Part shown: one piece after another, positions 1-8,081 of the stretch
How positions within the stretch are numbered: position 1 is the first letter of the stretch
Layout of the letters: every line of letters begins with the position of its first letter
NCBI GenBank assembly: GCA_030595925.1
Contig: JAUVLC010000103.1
Coordinates: 1 to 8,414 of the forward strand
Direction of reading: 5' to 3'
Source: Clostridia bacterium
GTDB lineage: Bacteria; CBDUZB01; JAGLHV01
DNA length: 8,414 bases
Translations under genes and position numbers: made by a program
Notes under the pieces: generated by a model
What the model saw: only the letters and a program-made list of their open reading frames with translations
The model's database searches: none
Told to the model about the DNA's origin: nothing

Positions 1-108
1 GTCTTTGTCTTTGTCTTTGTCTTTGTCTTTGTCTTTGTCTTTGTCTTTGTCTTTGTCTTTGTCTTTGTCTTTGTCTTTGTCTTTGTCTTTGTCTTTGTCT
101 TTGTCTTT
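1..108 (+). repeat. Perfect GTCTTT hexamer array (18 copies), truncated by window edge
   Basis: Eighteen uninterrupted copies of GTCTTT run from the first base; the array may continue outside the window. No substitutions are present, which suggests recent expansion or active homogenisation. It lies downstream of the leftward SurA-like gene, so a transcript of that gene would read it as AAAGAC repeats. Reading it as protein gives only alternating Ser-Leu or Phe-Val, so it is not coding. It is followed directly by the heptamer clusters. Copy number may be inaccurate if the assembly came from short reads. Confidence 0.97.
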
Positions 109-268
109 GTCTATGGACTATCGACTGTGGACTATGGACTGCCTTTATTCTTTATCTATGGACTATCGACTGTGGACTATGGACTGCCTTTATTCTTTGT
201 CTTTGTCTATGGACTATCGACTGTGGACTATGGACTGCCTTTATTCTTTATCTATGAACTGTCTTTAT
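109..268 (+). repeat. Site 1: three ATGGACT-type heptamer clusters in a 45-bp higher-order repeat
   Basis: Three clusters of four 7-bp units begin at 113, 158 and 209. Each has the unit order ATGGACT, ATCGACT, GTGGACT, ATGGACT. Clusters are separated by a GCCTTTATTCTTT-type spacer; the second spacer carries extra GTCTTT-like hexamer sequence, so the period is 45 then 51 bp. A decayed fourth unit (ATGAACT, 254-260) followed by one GTCTTT ends the block 10 bp before the stop of the SurA-like gene. On that gene's sense strand the units read AGTCCAT. Function is unknown. Any ORF through it is low-complexity translation. Confidence 0.93.
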
Positions 269-277
269 AACTTTATA

Positions 278-1132
278 TTAAAAATCCAACCCTTCCAGCA
301 TTTTTCTATTTTGAATAATTATTGCCTGTTCATCTAAATCATTTAACCAGTCTTCCATTTTTTCGGTCTCTTTCAGTTTTTTTATAATCATGGAAATCTC
401 ATTATCGGATAATTTTTCTACTTTCAATTTTTTTCTTTTTTTTCCTACTTTCATTACTGCCCATTTAGAATATACCTTTATTGGTCGACTTATTTCTCCT
501 CCCGACAAGGAAAATAACGCTTTTTCTATCCGCCAATCCAAATCTCCCACGTTATACCATTGCCACTCCTCATTATCTAAAACAAATTTTTTTAATTTTT
601 CAATTCCTTTTTGCATATCCTCTTCTTCAATCAACTGTTTAGTGGCTCGATTACTACTTAATAACACTACTTTTGCCCAAACTTCTTCTTGTGTGTTTAA
701 ACGATAACCTTCTATTTCCTGATTACTAACCCGCACTGTCTCAACAATTTCCTTACTTTTTTTCTTTAACAGCGTTTGAAGTAAAGCCTGCTCCCAGTAT
801 TTTTCTATTGTTTTCATAAAATCTTTATCTTTGTCCAACTCTTGTCTTTGGGCTTCCTGTAATAAAACCTCTCTTTTTATTATGGTATCTAAAAACTCTT
901 TTTTTCCGTCATAAGTAGCAAGTTTTTTCCTTTCAATAGCTGACAGAATTTCTGCTTCGTCCTTAAATTCTTCTACTGTCATCCAATAATCATTTATTTC
1001 CACTAAAACACCTTCTGTTCCAATTTTGAAAGGGTGCATTCTTTTTTTTCCAAACATATCAATCAATAAATAACTGGAAGTTATTAATAAAACAATAACC
1101 GATATACCAAAAAGTATCTTTATTTTTAACAT
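278..1132 (-). CDS. Membrane-anchored SurA/PpiC-like protein with a degenerate parvulin domain
   Basis: Predicted 284-aa envelope folding factor of the SurA/PrsA/PpiC class. Residues 5-26 form one hydrophobic segment after a short basic N-terminus, so it is an N-terminal anchor or uncleaved signal; the rest would face the periplasm or exterior. Residues about 42-135 resemble the helical SurA N-terminal chaperone domain (INDYWMTVEEF, then a charged helical stretch). Residues about 149-231 keep a parvulin-like outline: VWAKVVLLSS strand, GDLDW, the FSLSGGEISRPI motif, and a final KWAVMKV strand. Both histidines usual in active parvulins, in the HIL and YHI motifs, are replaced here, so isomerase activity is doubtful and a chaperone role more likely (inference). 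The ATG at 1132 was chosen because AGGAGGG lies 4 nt upstream; an in-frame GTG at 1168 would add 12 residues and lacks such a site. It has its own promoter. Confidence 0.82.
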   Translation of the reverse strand: MLKIKILFGISVIVLLITSSYLLIDMFGKKRMHPFKIGTEGVLVEINDYWMTVEEFKDEAEILSAIERKKLATYDGKKEFLDTIIKREVLLQEAQRQELDKDKDFMKTIEKYWEQALLQTLLKKKSKEIVETVRVSNQEIEGYRLNTQEEVWAKVVLLSSNRATKQLIEEEDMQKGIEKLKKFVLDNEEWQWYNVGDLDWRIEKALFSLSGGEISRPIKVYSKWAVMKVGKKRKKLKVEKLSDNEISMIIKKLKETEKMEDWLNDLDEQAIIIQNRKMLEGLDF

Positions 1133-1136
1133 TTTA

Positions 1137-1143
1137 CCCTCCT
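1137..1143 (-). promoter_or_regulatory. Ribosome binding site deciding the start of the SurA-like gene
   Basis: AGGAGGG on the minus strand, 4 nt before the ATG at 1132. This near-perfect Shine-Dalgarno favours the ATG over the in-frame GTG at 1168. Confidence 0.85.
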
Positions 1144-1166
1144 GGTTATAAAAAAACAAAGCCTGC

Positions 1167-1202
1167 ACTTTTGGACATCAAAAGTATAAGACAATGCCTC
1201 CT
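1167..1202 (-). promoter_or_regulatory. 5' leader of the SurA-like gene: small hairpin plus a second AGGAGG
   Basis: The predicted leader, about 85 nt, holds a 7-bp perfect stem (ACTTTTG/CAAAAGT, 1167-1185) with a 5-nt loop, and upstream of it a second AGGAGG (1197-1202, minus strand). No convincing ORF starts at a normal distance from that second site: a TTG is only 2 nt away and the nearest ATG is 18 nt away. It may be a decoy or standby ribosome site, or chance. The stem is AT-rich and weak. No known riboswitch class was recognised. Confidence 0.3.
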
Positions 1203-1223
1203 TTTTTTCTTCTACTCAAAATA

Positions 1224-1252
1224 ATTTTAATATAACTTAAATACAAAGTCAA
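1224..1252 (-). promoter_or_regulatory. Sigma70-type promoter for the SurA-like gene
   Basis: On the minus strand TTGACT (1247-1252), a 17-bp spacer, then TAAAAT (1224-1229). Each box matches consensus at five of six positions and the spacing is optimal. Transcription would start near 1217 and leave a leader of about 85 nt. The -35 box sits immediately after the U-tract of the terminator of the upstream dehydratase, so the two transcription units are separated within a few bases. Confidence 0.75.
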
Positions 1253-1253
1253 T

Positions 1254-1288
1254 AAAAAAGATAGGGAACAAACAACTTCCCTATCTTT
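1254..1288 (-). terminator. Rho-independent terminator after the dehydratase gene
   Basis: A perfect 12-bp inverted repeat, AAAGATAGGGAA (1257-1268) and TTCCCTATCTTT (1277-1288), has an 8-nt loop. Read on the minus strand, the 3' arm runs into a T-tract (complement of 1254-1259). It lies about 105 bp after the dehydratase stop codon and would end that transcript before the SurA-like gene's own promoter. On the plus strand no T-tract follows beyond the stem, so it is one-directional. Confidence 0.88.
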
Positions 1289-1392
1289 ATGTTTGATTTC
1301 TTTAGGTATCTATTCGTCAAAGACATTAATAAACTTTTGTTTTCTTCTATTAATACTACTTTGAAATTTTAAGAAATGTACCGGTCAAACCA

Positions 1393-3258
1393 CTATATTT
1401 TTGGACAAAAAACACCTCCCTTTTTATTTTCCATATTCCATTCCGGAACAAGTTGTTTCAATTTAGTCATAGCCACATCCAAATTTTGCTTATCAGCTAA
1501 ATGCCAGAGTTTTTCAATTTCTTCAAATAATGGTTCTTTTCCTACTTCGGCAGAAAAAGTTGTAAAAATCTTATCATTTTCCGTTTTCTTCACATTTTCT
1601 TTCTCAGTCAAAAGTTCTTCGTATAATTTTTCCCCTGGCCTCAATCCGATAAATTTAATATCGATATCTTTATACGGACGCAAACCGGACAATCTAATCA
1701 AAGATTCCGCCATATTAAGAATTTTCACCGGCTTTCCCATATTAAGCACAAAAAGTTCTCCACCCTTACTTATACTCCCTGCAGTTAAAACTAAATGAAC
1801 TGCTTCGGGAATAGTCATAAAATACCTGATTACTTCCGGGTGGGTCACTGTCAAAGGCCCCCCTTGTGCTATTTGTTTCTTAAACAAAGGTAACACACTT
1901 CCACTACTATCCAAAACATTGCCAAATCGGACTGCACAAAAGCATGTCTTAGACCCCTTATCTAATGATTGGACTACTTTTTCAGCAACGCGTTTAGTAA
2001 CCCCCATAATACTGGTGGGATTAACCGCTTTGTCTGTAGAAATCATTACAAACTTTTCTGCCTTGTACTCAACGGCCAAAGTAGCTACATTTTTCGTTCC
2101 ACAAATATTATTTTTAATAGCCACATCCATACTTTCTTCCATTAAAGGAACATGTTTGTAAGCTGCCGCATGAAAAACAATCTGAGGAATATGCTCTCTA
2201 AAAACATCTTCCATCTTGGTTTTATGTTGAATATTAGCAATCACCGGCTTAAGTGTCAACGAAGAACATTTATTTAGCAATTCCATATATATTACATAAA
2301 GGGCATGTTCGGAATTTTCCAATAATATTAAATGACGTGGTTTAAAATCAATAATCTGTCTGCACAATTCCGCCCCAATAGACCCTCCCGCCCCGGTTAC
2401 CATCACTATTTTACCTTCCAGAAACTTAGCTGTTTCAGCAATTTCCTTGAAATGCACTTCCCGATCTAAAACATCTTCCGGTTTAACATCTCCTACCTGA
2501 CTAACCTGCAAAGAACCATCCAGGATATTGAAAACAGAAGGAACTCTTTTCAATTCCACCTCTGCTTTTTCACACAGAAAAATAATTTTTTTCATCTGTT
2601 CAACAGGTATCGAAGGAATAGCAATAACAATCATCTCTGCTTTCTTTTCCCTAACCCATCTTTTTACTTCCTCAATCTTTCCTAAAACCGGAACCTCACG
2701 AATAATTATTCCTTTTTTAGCCAAATCATCATCAAGAAAACCCACCGGACGGTAAGGAACATATCCATTTTTTTCCATATCCCTCACCAATAACTCCCCA
2801 CAACTACCTGCACCGATAATAATCGCTTTCTTACAACGGCAATTTCTCATATTATTTAATTTTTTCCAATAAGAACAACTTAAATAAATTAATAATCTAC
2901 TCCCCCCAACCAAACCGGTAGTAATAATAGAAGTCATTATTGTCACTGTCCTCGGTAAAGAAAGATTATTGATAAAATAAAGACAAATGATATATATAGC
3001 AATGCTTATGTTTACCGAAGCAAAAATCCTGAAAATATTACGCACCGTCATATATCGCCAATCATGATGATAAAATTCAAAAAAATAAAACACACCAATA
3101 GTCATAAAAGAATAGAGCCAAAAACTATGCACATATAAACCCCAATAAAGAGGTGGAATATGAGTATCAAATCTCAAAAAGAAACTAAATACCAAAGCAG
3201 CATTAATAAAAATCAAATCAGTTATCACCAAAAAAATTCTTGTTCTTAACTGTCTCAC
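1393..3258 (-). CDS. Membrane-bound nucleotide-sugar 4,6-dehydratase (CapD/WbpM/PglF-like polysaccharide biosynthesis protein)
   Basis: A 621-aa protein of the large membrane-anchored short-chain dehydrogenase/reductase family that makes UDP-4-keto-6-deoxy sugars from UDP-GlcNAc (or a related substrate) for surface polysaccharide or glycoprotein glycans. Four hydrophobic segments lie at about 10-29, 42-61, 77-97 and 103-125. A first Rossmann-like domain follows, with IIIGAGSCG (146-154). The catalytic domain has the NAD(P)-binding TGAGGSIG (288-295), FHAAAYKHVPL (362-372), and STDKAVNPTSIMGVTK (407-422). Met418 and Lys422 replace the usual Tyr-x-x-x-Lys pair, as in the Ser-Met-Lys type dehydratases. 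RPGEKLYEELL (540-550) is the conserved C-terminal signature. Full length for the family. The start is GTG at 3258, with AGGAGGG 6 nt upstream. A hexamer repeat array begins about 50 bp upstream of the start and no clear promoter lies between, so its promoter is within or beyond the repeat block, or it is co-transcribed with sixA. The exact sugar cannot be told from sequence. Confidence 0.93.
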   Translation of the reverse strand: MRQLRTRIFLVITDLIFINAALVFSFFLRFDTHIPPLYWGLYVHSFWLYSFMTIGVFYFFEFYHHDWRYMTVRNIFRIFASVNISIAIYIICLYFINNLSLPRTVTIMTSIITTGLVGGSRLLIYLSCSYWKKLNNMRNCRCKKAIIIGAGSCGELLVRDMEKNGYVPYRPVGFLDDDLAKKGIIIREVPVLGKIEEVKRWVREKKAEMIVIAIPSIPVEQMKKIIFLCEKAEVELKRVPSVFNILDGSLQVSQVGDVKPEDVLDREVHFKEIAETAKFLEGKIVMVTGAGGSIGAELCRQIIDFKPRHLILLENSEHALYVIYMELLNKCSSLTLKPVIANIQHKTKMEDVFREHIPQIVFHAAAYKHVPLMEESMDVAIKNNICGTKNVATLAVEYKAEKFVMISTDKAVNPTSIMGVTKRVAEKVVQSLDKGSKTCFCAVRFGNVLDSSGSVLPLFKKQIAQGGPLTVTHPEVIRYFMTIPEAVHLVLTAGSISKGGELFVLNMGKPVKILNMAESLIRLSGLRPYKDIDIKFIGLRPGEKLYEELLTEKENVKKTENDKIFTTFSAEVGKEPLFEEIEKLWHLADKQNLDVAMTKLKQLVPEWNMENKKGGVFCPKI

Positions 3259-3264
3259 TATTAA

Positions 3265-3271
3265 CCCTCCT
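3265..3271 (-). promoter_or_regulatory. Ribosome binding site for the GTG-started dehydratase
   Basis: AGGAGGG on the minus strand, 6 nt before the GTG at 3258. It supports this GTG as the true start. Confidence 0.82.
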
Positions 3272-3308
3272 CTTTTATTGTCGTCTCTGTTTTTATTTCT
3301 TTAACTTT

Positions 3309-3410
3309 GTCTTTGTCTTTGTCTTTGTCTTTGTCTTTGTCTTTGTCTTTGTCTTTGTCTTTGTCTTTGTCTTTGTCTTTGTCTTTGTCTTTGTCTTTGT
3401 CTTTGTCTGT
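3309..3410 (+). repeat. GTCTTT hexamer array (16 perfect copies plus one GTCTGT)
   Basis: Sixteen exact GTCTTT copies (3309-3404) are followed by one variant unit (3405-3410). On the sense strand of the leftward genes it reads AAAGAC and ends about 50 bp before the dehydratase start codon. As a hexamer it cannot shift reading frame, but changes in copy number would alter leader length or promoter spacing. It has the same unit as the array at 1-108. It translates to Ser-Leu or Phe-Val repeats in this orientation and is not a gene. Confidence 0.97.
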
Positions 3411-3413
3411 TAT

Positions 3414-3525
3414 CTATGGACTATGGACTATCGACTATGGACTTTCGTTTCTTTTTTTAATCTATGGACTATGGACTGTCGACTATGGACTTTCGTTTCT
3501 TTTTTTAATCTATGGACTATGGACT
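3414..3525 (+). repeat. Site 2: ATGGACT-type heptamer clusters in a 48-bp higher-order repeat
   Basis: Clusters begin at 3416 (four units), 3464 (four units) and 3512 (two units), exactly 48 bp apart. They are separated by a nearly identical spacer of TTCGTTTC, a T-run and AATCT. Units are ATGGACT with one TCGA-bearing unit (ATCGACT or GTCGACT) in third place in each full cluster. The block lies downstream of sixA and upstream of the dehydratase; on their sense strand the unit is AGTCCAT. It directly adjoins the hexamer array, the same arrangement as at the left end of the window. Confidence 0.93.
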
Positions 3526-3542
3526 GTTTTTTGCTTTTTCTC

Positions 3543-4016
3543 TTACCCGGGAATTAATTCCGGTATTACTTCCCAAAGCAAATACCACTTATCCCCTTCT
3601 CTTTTGAAACAAACAACCCCTCCCGAAGGAAATTTAATTAATTCTTCATATTCAGAATTAACCAGCAATAAGGAACTAATCTTCTGCAAAAAAGGAAGAT
3701 GCCCTACAATCATTAAATTAGTATTTCCTTTAATTATTTGCTTTAACAGATTATTTGCCGGAGCGGTAGGAGAAAGTTCTTCTTTTTCGACAACCTTTTC
3801 TTGGTCAATCTTTATGATTTTTGCCAGAATTTGTGCGGTTTGAACAGCCCGAACCTTTCTGCTATGCCAAAGAACATCTATTTTGACTTTGACATCCGCA
3901 CCTTTCAAAAACTTACCTATCTTAAACACATCTGCTTTACCTTTTTGACTAAGCGGACGGTTGGAAAATACCTCTCTATTGCTTACTTCCCCGTGCCGTA
4001 CTAAATATAATTTCAC
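3543..4016 (-). CDS. sixA: SixA-type phosphohistidine phosphatase (histidine phosphatase superfamily)
   Basis: A 157-aa cytoplasmic protein of the phosphoglycerate-mutase-like histidine phosphatase clan, with the length and layout of SixA, which removes phosphate from histidine in phosphorelay or phosphotransfer proteins. Visible motifs are VRHGE with nucleophile His8 and Arg7; RPLSQKG (20-26); SRKVRAVQTAQIL (52-64), the Ser-Arg-Thr phosphate pocket; EELSP (79-83); and VGHLPF with second catalytic His106. The start is GTG at 4016: an overlapping ATG at 4018 is followed at once by TGA, whereas the GTG frame begins KLYLVRHG as in the family and has AAGGA 6 nt upstream. It is transcribed leftward from its own promoter, divergent from the amidase. 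Related phosphatases acting on small molecules cannot be excluded, so the specific substrate is inferred. Confidence 0.85.
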   Translation of the reverse strand: MKLYLVRHGEVSNREVFSNRPLSQKGKADVFKIGKFLKGADVKVKIDVLWHSRKVRAVQTAQILAKIIKIDQEKVVEKEELSPTAPANNLLKQIIKGNTNLMIVGHLPFLQKISSLLLVNSEYEELIKFPSGGVVCFKREGDKWYLLWEVIPELIPG

Positions 4017-4022
4017 ATTTTT

Positions 4023-4027
4023 TCCTT
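4023..4027 (-). promoter_or_regulatory. Ribosome binding site for sixA GTG start
   Basis: AAGGA on the minus strand, 6 nt before GTG 4016. Moderate strength, but correctly placed for the GTG and not for a productive ATG. Confidence 0.6.
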
Positions 4028-4051
4028 TTTATTTTTTTTAATGCTTAAATA

Positions 4052-4070
4052 TTGGATTCATTATATCCAA
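4052..4070. promoter_or_regulatory. Inverted repeat over the sixA -10 box (possible operator)
   Basis: TTGGAT (4052-4057) and ATCCAA (4065-4070) form a 6-bp inverted repeat around a 7-bp centre that contains most of the -10 box and lies next to the expected start site. This is a typical place for a repressor dimer to bind. No regulator gene is visible nearby and six-base arms could be chance. Confidence 0.3.
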
Positions 4071-4088
4071 CGAATAAACAAAAATCAA
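4060..4088 (-). promoter_or_regulatory. Sigma70-type promoter for sixA
   Basis: On the minus strand TTGATT (4083-4088), a 17-bp spacer, and a perfect TATAAT (4060-4065). Transcription would start near 4053, giving a leader of roughly 37 nt. It is back-to-back with the amidase promoter; the two -35 boxes are about 40 bp apart. Confidence 0.78.
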
Positions 4089-4127
4089 GAATTAATTTGA
4101 AATCATTAAAAAATTACTAAAAATTGT

Positions 4128-4156
4128 TTGACTTTTTCCTGTTTTTGGTATACGAT
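4128..4156 (+). promoter_or_regulatory. Sigma70-type promoter for the amidase-murI unit
   Basis: TTGACT (4128-4133), a 17-bp spacer, and TACGAT (4151-4156), which matches the -10 consensus at four of six bases. The expected start is near 4163, giving a leader of about 37 nt before ATG 4200. The overlap of the TTG at 4128 with the -35 box argues against that upstream codon being used as a start. Confidence 0.68.
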
Positions 4157-4199
4157 ACATACCGTCGTAATTAATAGAGTCAGAGGAACCTGTATAAAA

Positions 4200-5834
4200 A
4201 TGATAAAAAAGATAAAATTTTTATTTTTCCTTTCTATAGTCAGTATTCTAACCCTTGCCGGTTATTCTCAAAGGAGAATACAGATATTTTCCGATAACCA
4301 ATTAACTATTCAACCCGTTTTGACTTTAATTGATGGAAAAGGGTATTTACAGGCAACTGATGTGGCCGAAATGTACAATCTCAAATTAGATTGGTATGCC
4401 ATTTCTAAGAAACTAACTTTCTCCAAATATAACAAAAAAGTCATCATTTTCATAGATAGCACCGAAGTAATTACTGATAACATAAAAAGAAAATTAACCA
4501 AATCCCCTTTTTTAGATAAAAACATGGTAATGGTTCCTTTGGAATTGCTTCTCACCCGTGCTTTTAATGGACCATTTCAAAATTCTACTTTATGGGACAG
4601 AGAAACAAGAACTTTAACCATCACCGAAAAAAACGAAAACAGAGAAAAAACTAAAGAAGAAGATGATGATTCAATAAACATTCTTCCTCCCTGTATCTTT
4701 ACTTATCCGGATTATACTAAAATTTTAATCGAAACAATTATCCCTTTGAATTATACAGTAGAAAAAGACACAACAACTACTTCTATATTTTTAAACATTT
4801 TTGATGGGAAACTTGATATTATAAAATCTGCCTCGATGGTTAAAAATGGTGTAATAAAAAATATTTCCGCACAACAGGAAAAAACAAAAGCTTCTTTAAA
4901 TATAGAATTTGATAAATTTGCAGGCAACTTTGAGGTATTAAAATCGTCAAATCCTATAGGAATAATTGTAAAAATAAAAAATCTTCTCCATCAATCTCCC
5001 TCCACCGAAACATCCCTTCCCCGGCCTCTTACAGCACAACCAAAACCTTTACCCAAAATTACCATACCTGCTATCCAACATCTGCAGACAATAACCAAGG
5101 AAAAAATAATTCCTTTAGAAAAAATAATAAACAATCTTCCTGCTCATCTAAAAATAAAAACTATAGTTATTGACCCCGGACACGGAGGAAAAGATCCCGG
5201 AGCTATTGGGACTAACGGCACAAAAGAGAAAGACCTGGTTTTGGATGTGGCCAAAAGATTAGCCAAAATAATTAAAAAAAGGATGCATGTCAAAGTAATA
5301 CTAACCAGAAATGATGACACCTTTATTCCCTTAGCTGTCCGAACCCAAATGGCTAATGAAAAAAAAGCAGATCTCTTTATCAGCATCCATGTTAATGCCT
5401 CTCTTTCCCCTAAAACAAAAGGATTCGAAATTTATTTTCTCTCGGAAAAAGCATCTGATAAAGAAGCAGAAGCAGTAGCTAATATGGAAAATTCCGTAAT
5501 TGCCATGGAAGAACAGTCTCCAAAATTAAATGAATTAACTTCTATTCTCTGGTCAATGACCCTTAATAAATACATGAACAACTCTTCATTATTGTGTTCT
5601 TTAATCAGCAGAGAAGTAACGCTAATGCACTTAGGCATACAAAATCGTGGTGTAAAACAGGCAGCATTTCATGTTCTGCGCGGAACAAAAATGCCTGCGG
5701 TTCTGGTGGAATTAGGATTTCTCTCTAATAAAGGAGAAGAAAGAAAACTTAAAAACAGAAATTTTAGAAAAAAAATGACCGAAGCAATATATAAAGGAAT
5801 CTTTCGTTATAAAAAACAATTAGCGAGTAAATGA
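4200..5834 (+). CDS. N-acetylmuramoyl-L-alanine amidase with AMIN-like domain (Amidase_3 family)
   Basis: A 544-aa exported zinc amidase that cuts the bond between N-acetylmuramic acid and L-alanine of peptidoglycan, as in AmiA/B/C-type cell separation. Residues 1-23 are a signal peptide (KKIK, then a hydrophobic run). Residues about 30-145 look like a copper-amine-oxidase-N-type envelope domain, about 163-262 like an AMIN domain that targets cell wall, and about 265-310 are a Pro/Lys-rich linker. The catalytic Amidase_3 domain runs from about 318 to 540. Zinc and catalytic residues are intact: His328 in DPGHGG, Glu343, His397 in SIHVNAS, and Glu504 in VELGFLSN. ATG 4200 was chosen because it opens the signal peptide and has AGAGGA 12 nt upstream; the longer frame from TTG 4128 starts inside the promoter. 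A long insert at about 415-470 (EAEAVANMEN onward) is typical of the AmiC-like subgroup. murI follows closely. Confidence 0.93.
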   Translation: MIKKIKFLFFLSIVSILTLAGYSQRRIQIFSDNQLTIQPVLTLIDGKGYLQATDVAEMYNLKLDWYAISKKLTFSKYNKKVIIFIDSTEVITDNIKRKLTKSPFLDKNMVMVPLELLLTRAFNGPFQNSTLWDRETRTLTITEKNENREKTKEEDDDSINILPPCIFTYPDYTKILIETIIPLNYTVEKDTTTTSIFLNIFDGKLDIIKSASMVKNGVIKNISAQQEKTKASLNIEFDKFAGNFEVLKSSNPIGIIVKIKNLLHQSPSTETSLPRPLTAQPKPLPKITIPAIQHLQTITKEKIIPLEKIINNLPAHLKIKTIVIDPGHGGKDPGAIGTNGTKEKDLVLDVAKRLAKIIKKRMHVKVILTRNDDTFIPLAVRTQMANEKKADLFISIHVNASLSPKTKGFEIYFLSEKASDKEAEAVANMENSVIAMEEQSPKLNELTSILWSMTLNKYMNNSSLLCSLISREVTLMHLGIQNRGVKQAAFHVLRGTKMPAVLVELGFLSNKGEERKLKNRNFRKKMTEAIYKGIFRYKKQLASK

Positions 5835-5881
5835 TAAAAAATATTTCTTTTTTAAAATCTCTTAAACAGGACATTTCTCTT

Positions 5882-6679
5882 ATGAAAAAAGCAATTGGTG
5901 TTTTTGATTCAGGGGTAGGCGGATTAACAGTTACTTCACGAATTATCAACTATCTACCAAGAGAAAACATTATTTATTTTGGCGATACGGCCCATCTTCC
6001 CTACGGTTCAAAATCAAAAAAAACAGTTACCCGTTTTTCATTAAAAATTACTCATTTTCTAATTAAACACAATATTAAATTACTTGTAGTTGCCTGTAAT
6101 ACAGCTTCTGCTTTGGGACTTAATACCCTTAGACAGAAATTTTCCATACCTATTGTAGGAGTCATCAAACCAGGAGCTAAAGCAGCAATAAGTGCAACTA
6201 AAAACAAAAAAATAGGAATAATCGGAACTGATGCTACTATAAAAAGTGATGTTTATAAAAAAGCTTTACAAAAATTCGATCCAAAAATAAAAGTTTATAA
6301 TCTTTCCTGTCCCTTATTTGTTCCTCTGGTAGAGGAAGGCTGGATTAATAATAAAATTACTCATCTCGTAGCTACCCAATACCTTAAATCTTTAAAAAAT
6401 AAAGCTATTGATACCCTTATTTTAGGCTGTACTCATTATCCCTTACTTAAAGGCGTAATCACTCGGGTAATGGGGAAAAAAGTTACTTTAATCGATTCTG
6501 CCGAGGAAACAGCTAAAGAAGTAAAATATTTATTGCATAAACAAAATAACCTTATTATTCAAAACAATCATAAACCTCAACACAAATTTTTTGTAAGCGA
6601 TGCACCATTAAAATTTAAATGTTTAGGTGAAAAATTCCTAAAACGTAAAATAGCATCCGTAAAAAAGGTAGAGTTGTAA
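5882..6679 (+). CDS. murI: Glutamate racemase
   Basis: A 265-aa cytoplasmic enzyme interconverting L- and D-glutamate, supplying D-glutamate for peptidoglycan stem peptides. Hallmarks are IGVFDSGVGGLTV (5-17, Asp9), YFGDTAHLPYGSKS (32-45), VVACNTASA with catalytic Cys72 (69-77), FVPLVEEGW (146-154), and LGCTHYPLL with catalytic Cys183 and His185 (181-189). The ATG at 5882 gives the standard family length and N-terminus and has AGGA 10 nt upstream. An in-frame ATG at 5831 overlaps the amidase stop by ATGA and would add 17 residues unlike the family; coupled translation from there is possible. It is co-transcribed with the amidase. No terminator hairpin was found after the stop; a repeat block begins within 20 bp. 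Confidence 0.95.
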   Translation: MKKAIGVFDSGVGGLTVTSRIINYLPRENIIYFGDTAHLPYGSKSKKTVTRFSLKITHFLIKHNIKLLVVACNTASALGLNTLRQKFSIPIVGVIKPGAKAAISATKNKKIGIIGTDATIKSDVYKKALQKFDPKIKVYNLSCPLFVPLVEEGWINNKITHLVATQYLKSLKNKAIDTLILGCTHYPLLKGVITRVMGKKVTLIDSAEETAKEVKYLLHKQNNLIIQNNHKPQHKFFVSDAPLKFKCLGEKFLKRKIASVKKVEL

Positions 6680-6697
6680 TAAAAGACAGACAACAGA

Positions 6698-6739
6698 CAG
6701 TCCATAGTCCACAGTCGATAGTCCATAGACAAAGACAAA
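6698..6739 (-). repeat. Site 3: four heptamers plus hexamer remnant; exact inverted copy of 196-237
   Basis: On the plus strand the units are AGTCCAT, AGTCCAC, AGTCGAT and AGTCCAT (6699-6726), followed by AGACAAAGACAAA. Read on the minus strand the whole 42 bp matches 196-237 exactly, including two hexamer-like units. It lies 19 bp after the murI stop, so AGTCCAT is on the sense strand, as at sites 1 and 2. Confidence 0.92.
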
Positions 6740-6859
6740 AAACTGCAAATGGCAAAAATAACAGTCATAAGTAGTCAAAGATAGTCAAAAAAAAGATTGT
6801 GAATGGCAAAAGAAAAGGACAATTTAAAGACGGTTAAAATTGGTTGAAAGACAAACAAA

Positions 6860-6896
6860 AGTCCATAGTCGACAGTCCATAGTCCATAGTCCATAG
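6860..6896 (-). repeat. Site 4: five AGTCCAT-type heptamers
   Basis: On the plus strand the units are AGTCCAT, AGTCGAC, then three AGTCCAT (6860-6894). They are preceded by a GAAAGACAAAC remnant of the hexamer. Sense orientation relative to murI and queD is the same as site 3. As in every complete cluster, exactly one unit carries TCGA. Confidence 0.9.
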
Positions 6897-6908: not shown

Positions 6909-6943
6909 AGTTATTAGTTAATAGTTATGAGTTATAAGTTAAA
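6909..6943 (+). repeat. AGTTATN heptamer series (five units)
   Basis: Units are AGTTATT, AGTTAAT, AGTTATG, AGTTATA and AGTTAAA in exact 7-bp register. They begin 12 bp after the AGTCCAT series ends. The period and the AGT start match the AGTCCAT family, but the remaining bases differ, so it is a sister repeat or an unrelated AT-rich series. Confidence 0.7.
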
Positions 6944-7008: not shown

Positions 7009-7383
7009 ATGTTTGAATTAATGGTTGAAGATCATTTTAATGCTGCCCACAAACTAAGGAATTATAAAGGAAAATGTGAGCAATTACACGGACACAACTG
7101 GAAAGTAGCAGTTTTTCTAAAAGGAAAAAAACTAAACAAAACAGGAATGATTATGGACTTTGGCAAAATAAAAGAACTAATTAAAAAAATAACTAAAAAA
7201 CTCGACCATACTTATTTAAACACCACCCCTCCTTTCAATAAAATCAATCCCACCTCGGAAAACATTGCCCAATACATATTTGAAAAGATGAGTTCTCTTA
7301 TAGAAAAACAACAATGTGAAATATCTAAAATAACCGTTTGGGAAACAGAAAAAAACTGCGCCACATATTATCAAAAGGATTAA
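7009..7383 (+). CDS. queD: 6-carboxy-5,6,7,8-tetrahydropterin synthase
   Basis: A 124-aa cytoplasmic enzyme converting 7,8-dihydroneopterin triphosphate to 6-carboxytetrahydropterin, the first committed step to preQ0 and queuosine. Zinc ligands are His14 (FNAAHKL), His27 and His29 (LHGHNW). The catalytic Cys23 lies in GKCEQLHGH. Further family signs are GMIMDFGKIK (46-55), LDHTYLN (65-71, Asp66/His67), PTSEN (81-85), and VWETEKNCATYY (110-121, with the conserved Glu112). Length is normal for the short bacterial form. AGAGGA lies just upstream of the ATG. It opens the queDCE operon. No preQ1 riboswitch and no clear promoter lie upstream. Eukaryotic-type PTPS activity is less likely because Cys23 is in the QueD context and queC and queE follow. 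Confidence 0.95.
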   Translation: MFELMVEDHFNAAHKLRNYKGKCEQLHGHNWKVAVFLKGKKLNKTGMIMDFGKIKELIKKITKKLDHTYLNTTPPFNKINPTSENIAQYIFEKMSSLIEKQQCEISKITVWETEKNCATYYQKD

Positions 7384-7391
7384 TAGAAAAA

Positions 7392-8081
7392 ATGAAAAAC
7401 AAAAAAGCAGTTGTTCTTTTAAGTGGAGGCATCGATTCCTCTACGACCCTTTATCTTGCCCTAAAAAAAGGGTATATTTGTTTTTGCCTCATTTTTGATT
7501 ATGGACAAAAACACAAAAAAGAAATTGAATGTGCTAAAAAAATTGCTAAAAAGACAAAATGCAAATATGAAATCATCCGTTTCGAACTTCCATGGAAAGG
7601 CACATCTTTATTAGATAAAAAATTAACTATCCCCGAAACCCGTACTACACGGCAAATAAAAAAAGAAATTCCATCTACCTACGTCCCGGCACGTAATACT
7701 ATATTTTTAAGTTTTGCCCTCTCTTTTGCTGAAGCAATAAATGCCGGGGTAATTTTTAACGGGGCAAATGCCATAGATTACTCCGGATATCCCGATTGCC
7801 GGCCGGAATATTTTTCTGCCTTACAAAAAGTTTCCTCTTTAGGAACCAAAAAAGGCATTGAAGGCAAAAGCATAAAATTTCTAACCCCTTTAATAAAAAT
7901 GACTAAAACCGAAATTATAAAAACAGGTATGAAATTAAAAGTTCCCTATCAATTAACCTGGTCCTGCTATCAGGGGGGCAAAAACCCTTGCCAAAAGTGC
8001 GATAGCTGTCTGTTGCGGGCAAAAGGATTTAAGGAATTAGGAATTAATGATCCTTTATTATCCAGATCAACTAAATTATGA
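7392..8081 (+). CDS. queC: 7-cyano-7-deazaguanine (preQ0) synthase
   Basis: A 229-aa ATP-dependent enzyme converting 7-carboxy-7-deazaguanine and ammonia to preQ0. The PP-loop is LLSGGIDSS (9-17). Later motifs are FDYGQKHKKE (35-44), TYVPARNTIFLS (96-107), GANAIDYSGYPDCRPEY (124-140) and the C-terminal zinc site Cys192, Cys200, Cys203, Cys206 (SCYQGGKNPCQKCDSC). All key residues are present. The ATG at 7392 gives the standard N-terminus, 8 nt after queD; AAGGA inside the queD end (7375-7379) is the likely ribosome site, with a long 12-nt gap. A frame extension back to 7338 would overlap queD and does not resemble the family. The stop overlaps the queE start by ATGA. Confidence 0.96.
   Translation: MKNKKAVVLLSGGIDSSTTLYLALKKGYICFCLIFDYGQKHKKEIECAKKIAKKTKCKYEIIRFELPWKGTSLLDKKLTIPETRTTRQIKKEIPSTYVPARNTIFLSFALSFAEAINAGVIFNGANAIDYSGYPDCRPEYFSALQKVSSLGTKKGIEGKSIKFLTPLIKMTKTEIIKTGMKLKVPYQLTWSCYQGGKNPCQKCDSCLLRAKGFKELGINDPLLSRSTKL

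Follow-up and report, generated by a model that had tools for sequence, protein, structure and literature searches.

In this study, we have found that the AGTCCAT clusters of this genome belong to an abundant family of heptamer repeats, with the unit consensus AGTCNAY, and that the rule that fits the orientation of their arrays is that they read away from the nearest gene edge, whether that edge is the end or the start of a gene. The arrays are confined to intergenic DNA, are typically built as a block of four units, form a sharp boundary on their gene side, and hold the same position in sister species.

The window analyzed here, 8,414 nucleotides in length, is one whole contig of a 2.6-Mb draft genome in 193 contigs. 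Three genes lie on the minus strand, a SurA/parvulin-like gene (278-1132; a weak match), a polysaccharide-biosynthesis epimerase gene (1393-3258), and a histidine phosphatase gene (3543-4016), and these are followed on the plus strand by genes for an N-acetylmuramoyl-L-alanine amidase (4200-5834) and an Asp/Glu racemase family protein (5831-6679), a QueD-like gene (7009-7383), and a QueC-like gene (7392-8081); the window also carries a truncated radical-SAM gene. A 12-bp hairpin without mismatches and with T-rich sequence flanking it on both strands (1257-1288) lies between the first two genes and, judged from its sequence, is possibly a bidirectional terminator. The phosphatase and racemase genes have no match in either same-genus genome (G001 and G002), and many other host genes match these genomes at about 90% identity; the sister comparisons described below therefore use other loci.

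All four AGTCCAT clusters recorded in the initial annotation were found, with 21 matches in the window against 0.72 expected from shuffled sequence: the two leftward blocks supply 14, all on the minus strand, the two rightward sites supply 6, all on the plus strand, and a singleton lies inside queD (7153-7159). AGTCCAT is not the sole form of the unit, which in the window follows AGTC[C/G/A]A[T/C]. Site 1 (113-236, minus strand), 41 bp from the 3' edge of the SurA/parvulin-like gene (278-1132), consists of three four-unit blocks (113-140, 158-185, and 209-236), each with the sequence AGTCCATAGTCCACAGTCGATAGTCCAT; the blocks repeat in tandem in duplication steps of 45 to 51 bp, and a degenerate unit runs on to position 260. 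Site 2 (3416-3525, minus strand) begins 17 bp past the stop codon of the phosphatase gene and carries 10 units in blocks at 3416-3443, 3464-3491, and 3512-3525. Site 3 (6699-6726, plus strand) is a single four-unit block, again AGTCCATAGTCCACAGTCGATAGTCCAT, located 19 bp past the stop codon of the racemase gene and followed on the same strand by an A-rich tail, AGACAAAGACAAAA (6727-6740), a hexamer fragment that was recognized from its sequence and the tail consensus. Site 4 (6860-6894, plus strand), with the five units AGTCCATAGTCGACAGTCCATAGTCCATAGTCCAT, shares both spacer and orientation with site 3. On the interior side of this array lies a second, co-oriented heptamer family, AGTTATN (6909-6943, plus strand). 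This second family, which takes the interior side of AGTCCAT arrays, mostly reads away from genes at gene ends and follows no such rule at gene starts.

The presence of AAAGAC hexamers beside every cluster proved to be a local feature. Within the window, hexamer tracts with 100% matches in TRF, (AAAGAC)18.7 at 1-112 and (AAAGAC)17.3 at 3305-3408, both on the minus strand, lie 3' of arrays 1 and 2, and fragments accompany sites 3 and 4; genome-wide, however, the hexamer is an inconstant partner of the heptamer, since three or more tandem copies occur in only 7 contigs, compared with about 540 tandem heptamer pairs. The start of the contig falls within the first of these tracts and cuts it, and several contigs of the host and sister genomes end at such repeats; because contigs start or end inside them, the repeats appear to break the assembly.

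Across the genome, tandem pairs of AGTCNAY numbered 277 on one strand and 265 on the other, against 0 and 1 for the reversed control. Arrays and genes were compared in 781 kb (60 stretches plus the window, 30% of the genome), a sample that is not random, most stretches having been picked because they hold arrays, and that yielded 127 clusters and 174 arrays. By the rough gene calls made in this sample with a hexamer-trained script, 125 of the 127 clusters are intergenic, and in the window no coding sequence is interrupted, as the initial annotation had stated. Two other species of the host genus carry tandem AGTCNAY; the remaining relatives that were compared share only the domain of the host. 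When one genome per species was scanned for three AGTCCAY units, at least 117 stretches were recovered, compared with a chance expectation that we estimate, from the size of the collection, at about one match. The matches listed include Bacteroidota, Cyanobacteria, Omnitrophota, Verrucomicrobia/Lentisphaerota, WOR-3, and others; among these matches, AGTCCAY arrays occur across many unrelated phyla.

Where an array lies within 60 bp of a gene, all 69 such edges in the 781 kb read away from that gene, 59 at gene ends and 10 at gene starts, with no contrary case, although these arrays share ancestry within one genome, so that the 69 edges are not independent and p values overstate certainty. Two cruder sets of open reading frames gave 64:0 and 63:0 in the same test, and arrays 3 to 60 bp past a stop codon in the host genome gave 49:0. 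The bias was weaker past 120 bp (24:13). Sister species gave 25 outward edges to 1 contrary edge, and the cyanobacterium Anabaena azotica gave 31:4 within 60 bp.

The initial annotation had correctly observed that AGTCCAT reads in sense with the gene upstream at all four window sites and had proposed that orientation follows that gene. A count of strand against upstream gene in the 781 kb does reveal a tendency of this kind: between co-directional genes, 65 of 94 arrays are sense and 29 antisense (P = 0.0003, subject to the same shared ancestry). It is not the rule, however, because the antisense arrays typically adjoin the start of the downstream gene and read away from that start, which rules out sense to the upstream gene as a general description. 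In Anabaena azotica, no operon-sense bias was found (18:15). The warning given at the outset that four sites make a small sample was sound; they were too few to reveal the actual rule, which they hid because each of the four has a gene's 3' end as its nearest gene edge. Orientation tests on such repeats must therefore treat "sense to the upstream gene" and "away from the nearest gene" as two different things.

The arrays have a characteristic anatomy. Four-unit arrays make up 103 of the 174, with two 28-mers accounting for 73, and the units of the genome sample (AGTCCAT, 388; AGTCGAT, 97; AGTCCAC, 94; AGTCGAC, 36; AGTCAAT, 19) vary almost exclusively at positions 5 and 7. A microsatellite growing by slippage would be expected to have broad, decaying unit numbers; the sharp mode at four and the two dominant 28-mers argue instead for dispersal of the block. 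In Anabaena, by comparison, the distribution of unit numbers is broad. In more than 90% of copies AGA directly follows the block and opens an A-rich tail, the constant 3' neighbor of the arrays. After the arrays were masked, a 7-nt autocorrelation persisted in the spacers that contain them, at 0.367 (lag 7), 0.337 (lag 14), and 0.326 (lag 21); array-less spacers gave about 0.30. The array is the outer boundary of a repeat island. On its gene side the DNA is non-repetitive, the repetitive fraction dropping within 40 bp from 0.61 to 0.02; on its 3' side repeats are stacked, and the fraction declines from 0.89 to 0.25 across 400 bp. The spacers that contain arrays are longer, with a median of 460 bp against 75 bp for the rest; in 9 of 77 a plus-strand array is followed by a minus-strand array, forming a convergent pair, and in none of the 77 is minus then plus the sole order. 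The 28-nt block forms no hairpin and folds at 0 kcal/mol, and the window has no match in Rfam at the gathering score; a structured RNA was rejected on these two results. Longer stretches fold somewhat better than shuffled sequences (z scores down to -3.1), with pairing of GUCGAC-like cores. AGTCNAY has no G run and hence cannot form a quadruplex.

Comparison with the sister species showed that array position is conserved. Of 88 shared orthologous spacers, the array was kept in 9 of the 11 that bear one in the host genome, a figure that is biased upward because the sister contigs were chosen for carrying arrays; of the 77 that are array-less here, 1 has an array in a sister. The flanks align up to the array, unit numbers differ, and the interiors are unrelated. 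One spacer is 245 bp long with an array in the host and 37 bp long without one in a sister, which fits gain or loss equally well. Other repeats are present as well: REP-like palindromes, CCCGCCTTACAGACTGGCGG and GTAGGGGTGGGCTTGCCCACCC among them, lie in many spacers, and a MITE-like element of about 170 to 260 bp, with terminal inverted repeats near GAAAATAAAGGCAAAATATGTTT, is present in the 781 kb in 23 paired copies (for example, L031 2686-2921, L035 9645-9814, L037 1961-2153, and L038 4607-4776), none inside a gene and 10 with an internal heptamer array. The internal flank of this element lies beside 12 of the 174 arrays.

Several known repeats resemble these arrays. The closest parallels are the GGGAATC and GGGGA(T/C)T heptamers of Xanthomonas and Nostoc PCC 7120 (Rehm et al. 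2015, PMC4692102): the Xanthomonas GGGAATC arrays share the preference for four units (103/174 arrays here), the outward orientation (69/69 edges within 60 bp here), and the convergent pairs within one spacer (9/77 spacers here). Unlike AGTCNAY, GGGAATC is G-rich and forms quadruplexes, and that paper does not describe arrays as edges of repeat islands. Another family of heptamer arrays that are intergenic and strongly oriented with respect to genes is that of the TAACTGA direct repeats, known from Beggiatoaceae, Cyanobacteria, and Bacteroidetes; when the unit is written as AGTTATC, most of those in Beggiatoa read away from the start codon, whereas in the Microcystis sample orientation was mixed (MacGregor 2015, PMC4679880). 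The AGTTATN family beside the host arrays is related to this heptamer. TAACTGA nevertheless differs in sequence, in copy number (two to six), and in lying mainly just upstream of gene starts (PMC4679880), while the host arrays favor gene ends. The heptanucleotide STRR repeats of Calothrix and other cyanobacteria, as they are summarized in PMC4692102 and PMC4679880, are also dispersed intergenic arrays, and Anabaena azotica shares the AGTCCAT/AGTCAAT alphabet of the host; unit number is broad in Anabaena and mostly fixed at four here. Geobacter metallireducens has 49 dispersed elements, each of four tandem heptanucleotides, but their sequence is GGACCGG and they occur within genes too (PMC2700814). 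Finally, the REP/REPIN elements with RAYT transposases are short intergenic dispersed repeats that sometimes form inverted pairs (PMC3116915, PMC2817692); the Y1 (RAYT-type) transposase family PF01797 is matched 13 times in the host genome (contigs C65, C25, C26, C129, and others), but the palindromic hairpin core of REP is absent from the heptamer block.

We give an even chance to the interpretation that the clusters are a lineage-amplified, STRR-like dispersed heptamer repeat that is polar and probably neutral or selfish, and whose orientation derives from the geometry of the repeat islands. On this reading the element opens with a short lead rich in A, continues with a block of AGTCNAY units, typically four (28 nt), and closes with an A-rich tail in which a 7-nt periodicity persists; the 5' side abuts a gene, and the 3' side looks into the spacer, in whose interior other repeats pile up and turn over. 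The arrays would then owe their orientation to their place at the 5' end of a composite occupying the spacer, and selection at gene edges may reinforce it, since TAG stops lie on the AGT strand and none on the other. Copying was presumably aided by in-place duplication of the block and by carriage in the MITE-like element. This geometric account fits the host genome because its islands are long; it is less convincing for Anabaena, whose arrays face outward even though the spacers are short. The array is kept at the same edge in the sister species while the interior changes, a retention that could also reflect function. A further point against the interpretation is that no mobilizing enzyme was tied to the block. 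No RNA or DNA signaling function is needed to account for the observations, and we favor geometry, with the codon content of gene edges as reinforcement, over a codon filter or an RNA signal as the main cause.

A signal acting at the RNA level is rather unlikely. It would mean that RNA leaving a gene in either direction carries AGUCCAU and an unstructured, purine-rich tail that acts in termination, processing, or stability; at 3' ends it corresponds to the 3'-UTR element of the initial annotation. Such a signal predicts the outward rule at both ends, the preference for 3' over 5' ends (59 to 10), and the conservation of array position in the sisters, and the unstructured 28-nt block would suit a possible protein-binding site. 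On the other hand, there is neither an Rfam match nor structure in the block, placement at gene starts has no evident reason, and the contrast in stop content between AGTCCAT and AGTCCAC or AGTCAAC, discussed below, is not predicted. The narrower 3'-UTR proposal agrees with arrays being sense at 59/59 3' edges within 60 bp, where an RNA role is conceivable, but a sense-strand 3'-UTR element alone does not explain the whole pattern, because the outward rule holds at gene starts too.

Distinctly unlikely as the whole explanation is a filter at coding edges, whereby both orientations arise and selection spares the harmless ones, AGTCCAT supplying TAG stops at the ends of genes and its complement, ATGGACT, supplying ATG and no stop at their starts. 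AGTCCAC contains no stops, and AGTCAAC contains one only on the opposite strand; at 3' ends in mixed genomes, orientation tracked stop content, in that AGTCCAT gave a ratio of 26 away to 3 toward, while AGTCCAC and AGTCAAC together gave 11:15 (P = 0.0004), a comparison in which short loci from many genomes are pooled under rough gene calls, which counts against its weight. Arrays inside open reading frames are always on the stop-free strand (AGTCCAT, 10 antisense and 0 sense; AGTCAAC, 6 sense and 0 antisense), and the array overlaps or supplies the gene end at 10 edges here and 11 in Anabaena. However, arrays 3 to 60 bp past a stop codon are equally biased (49:0), both main 28-mers are stop-free in one frame, and the Xanthomonas GGGAATC repeat has no stop codons on either strand, yet the same orientation was reported for it (PMC4692102). 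The arrays past stop codons and the GGGAATC case contradict a stop-codon filter as the sole cause. Similarly, the idea that gene starts are supplied by the ATG of the array was rejected, since among 19 cases at gene starts here only 6 have an open frame that extends to the array.

It is quite improbable, in our judgment, that heptamers of unrelated sequence from distant phyla (AGTCNAY here, GGGAATC in Xanthomonas, and perhaps GGACCGG in Geobacter and AGTTATC/TAACTGA in Beggiatoa) form one functional class that marks genes on both sides and is read in RNA only as polymerase exits, whichever its direction, independently of quadruplexes and codons. We regard as very improbable a mobile element with insertion specificity for gene edges, for example, one moved by a Y1/RAYT-type transposase that reads the junction of coding sequence and spacer and inserts in one orientation. 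The dispersal of near-identical 28-mers, the 13 Y1 family matches, and the spacer that differs by the presence of an array between host and sister would agree with such an element; against it, the block lacks the hairpin characteristic of REP targets, target duplications were not seen, no transposase gene flanked by arrays was found, and array positions are common to the species rather than freshly scattered. A Chi- or KOPS-like polarity signal or a replication-strand effect, against which the initial annotation had rightly argued, seems most unlikely in this 193-contig draft, given that the strands are balanced (277 versus 265), orientation is set gene by gene, single spacers hold both orientations, and the strands of a related heptamer are mixed along a one-contig cyanobacterial sequence.

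In conclusion, AGTCNAY adds a new sequence family to a kind of repeat that is known but has not been explained. Heptamer repeats fill the spacers of many bacteria, and their abundance and orientation have so far been explained family by family, by quadruplexes or as translational regulators. What is added here is an anatomy that has no need of quadruplexes, together with the finding that the array bounds a repeat island. Because the same four-unit, outward-facing anatomy occurs in a sequence that is unable to form a quadruplex, quadruplexes are unlikely to be its general cause, and the question that these arrays pose is whether their polarity comes from the growth of repeat islands, from the codon content of gene edges, or from an RNA signal at the exits of genes.
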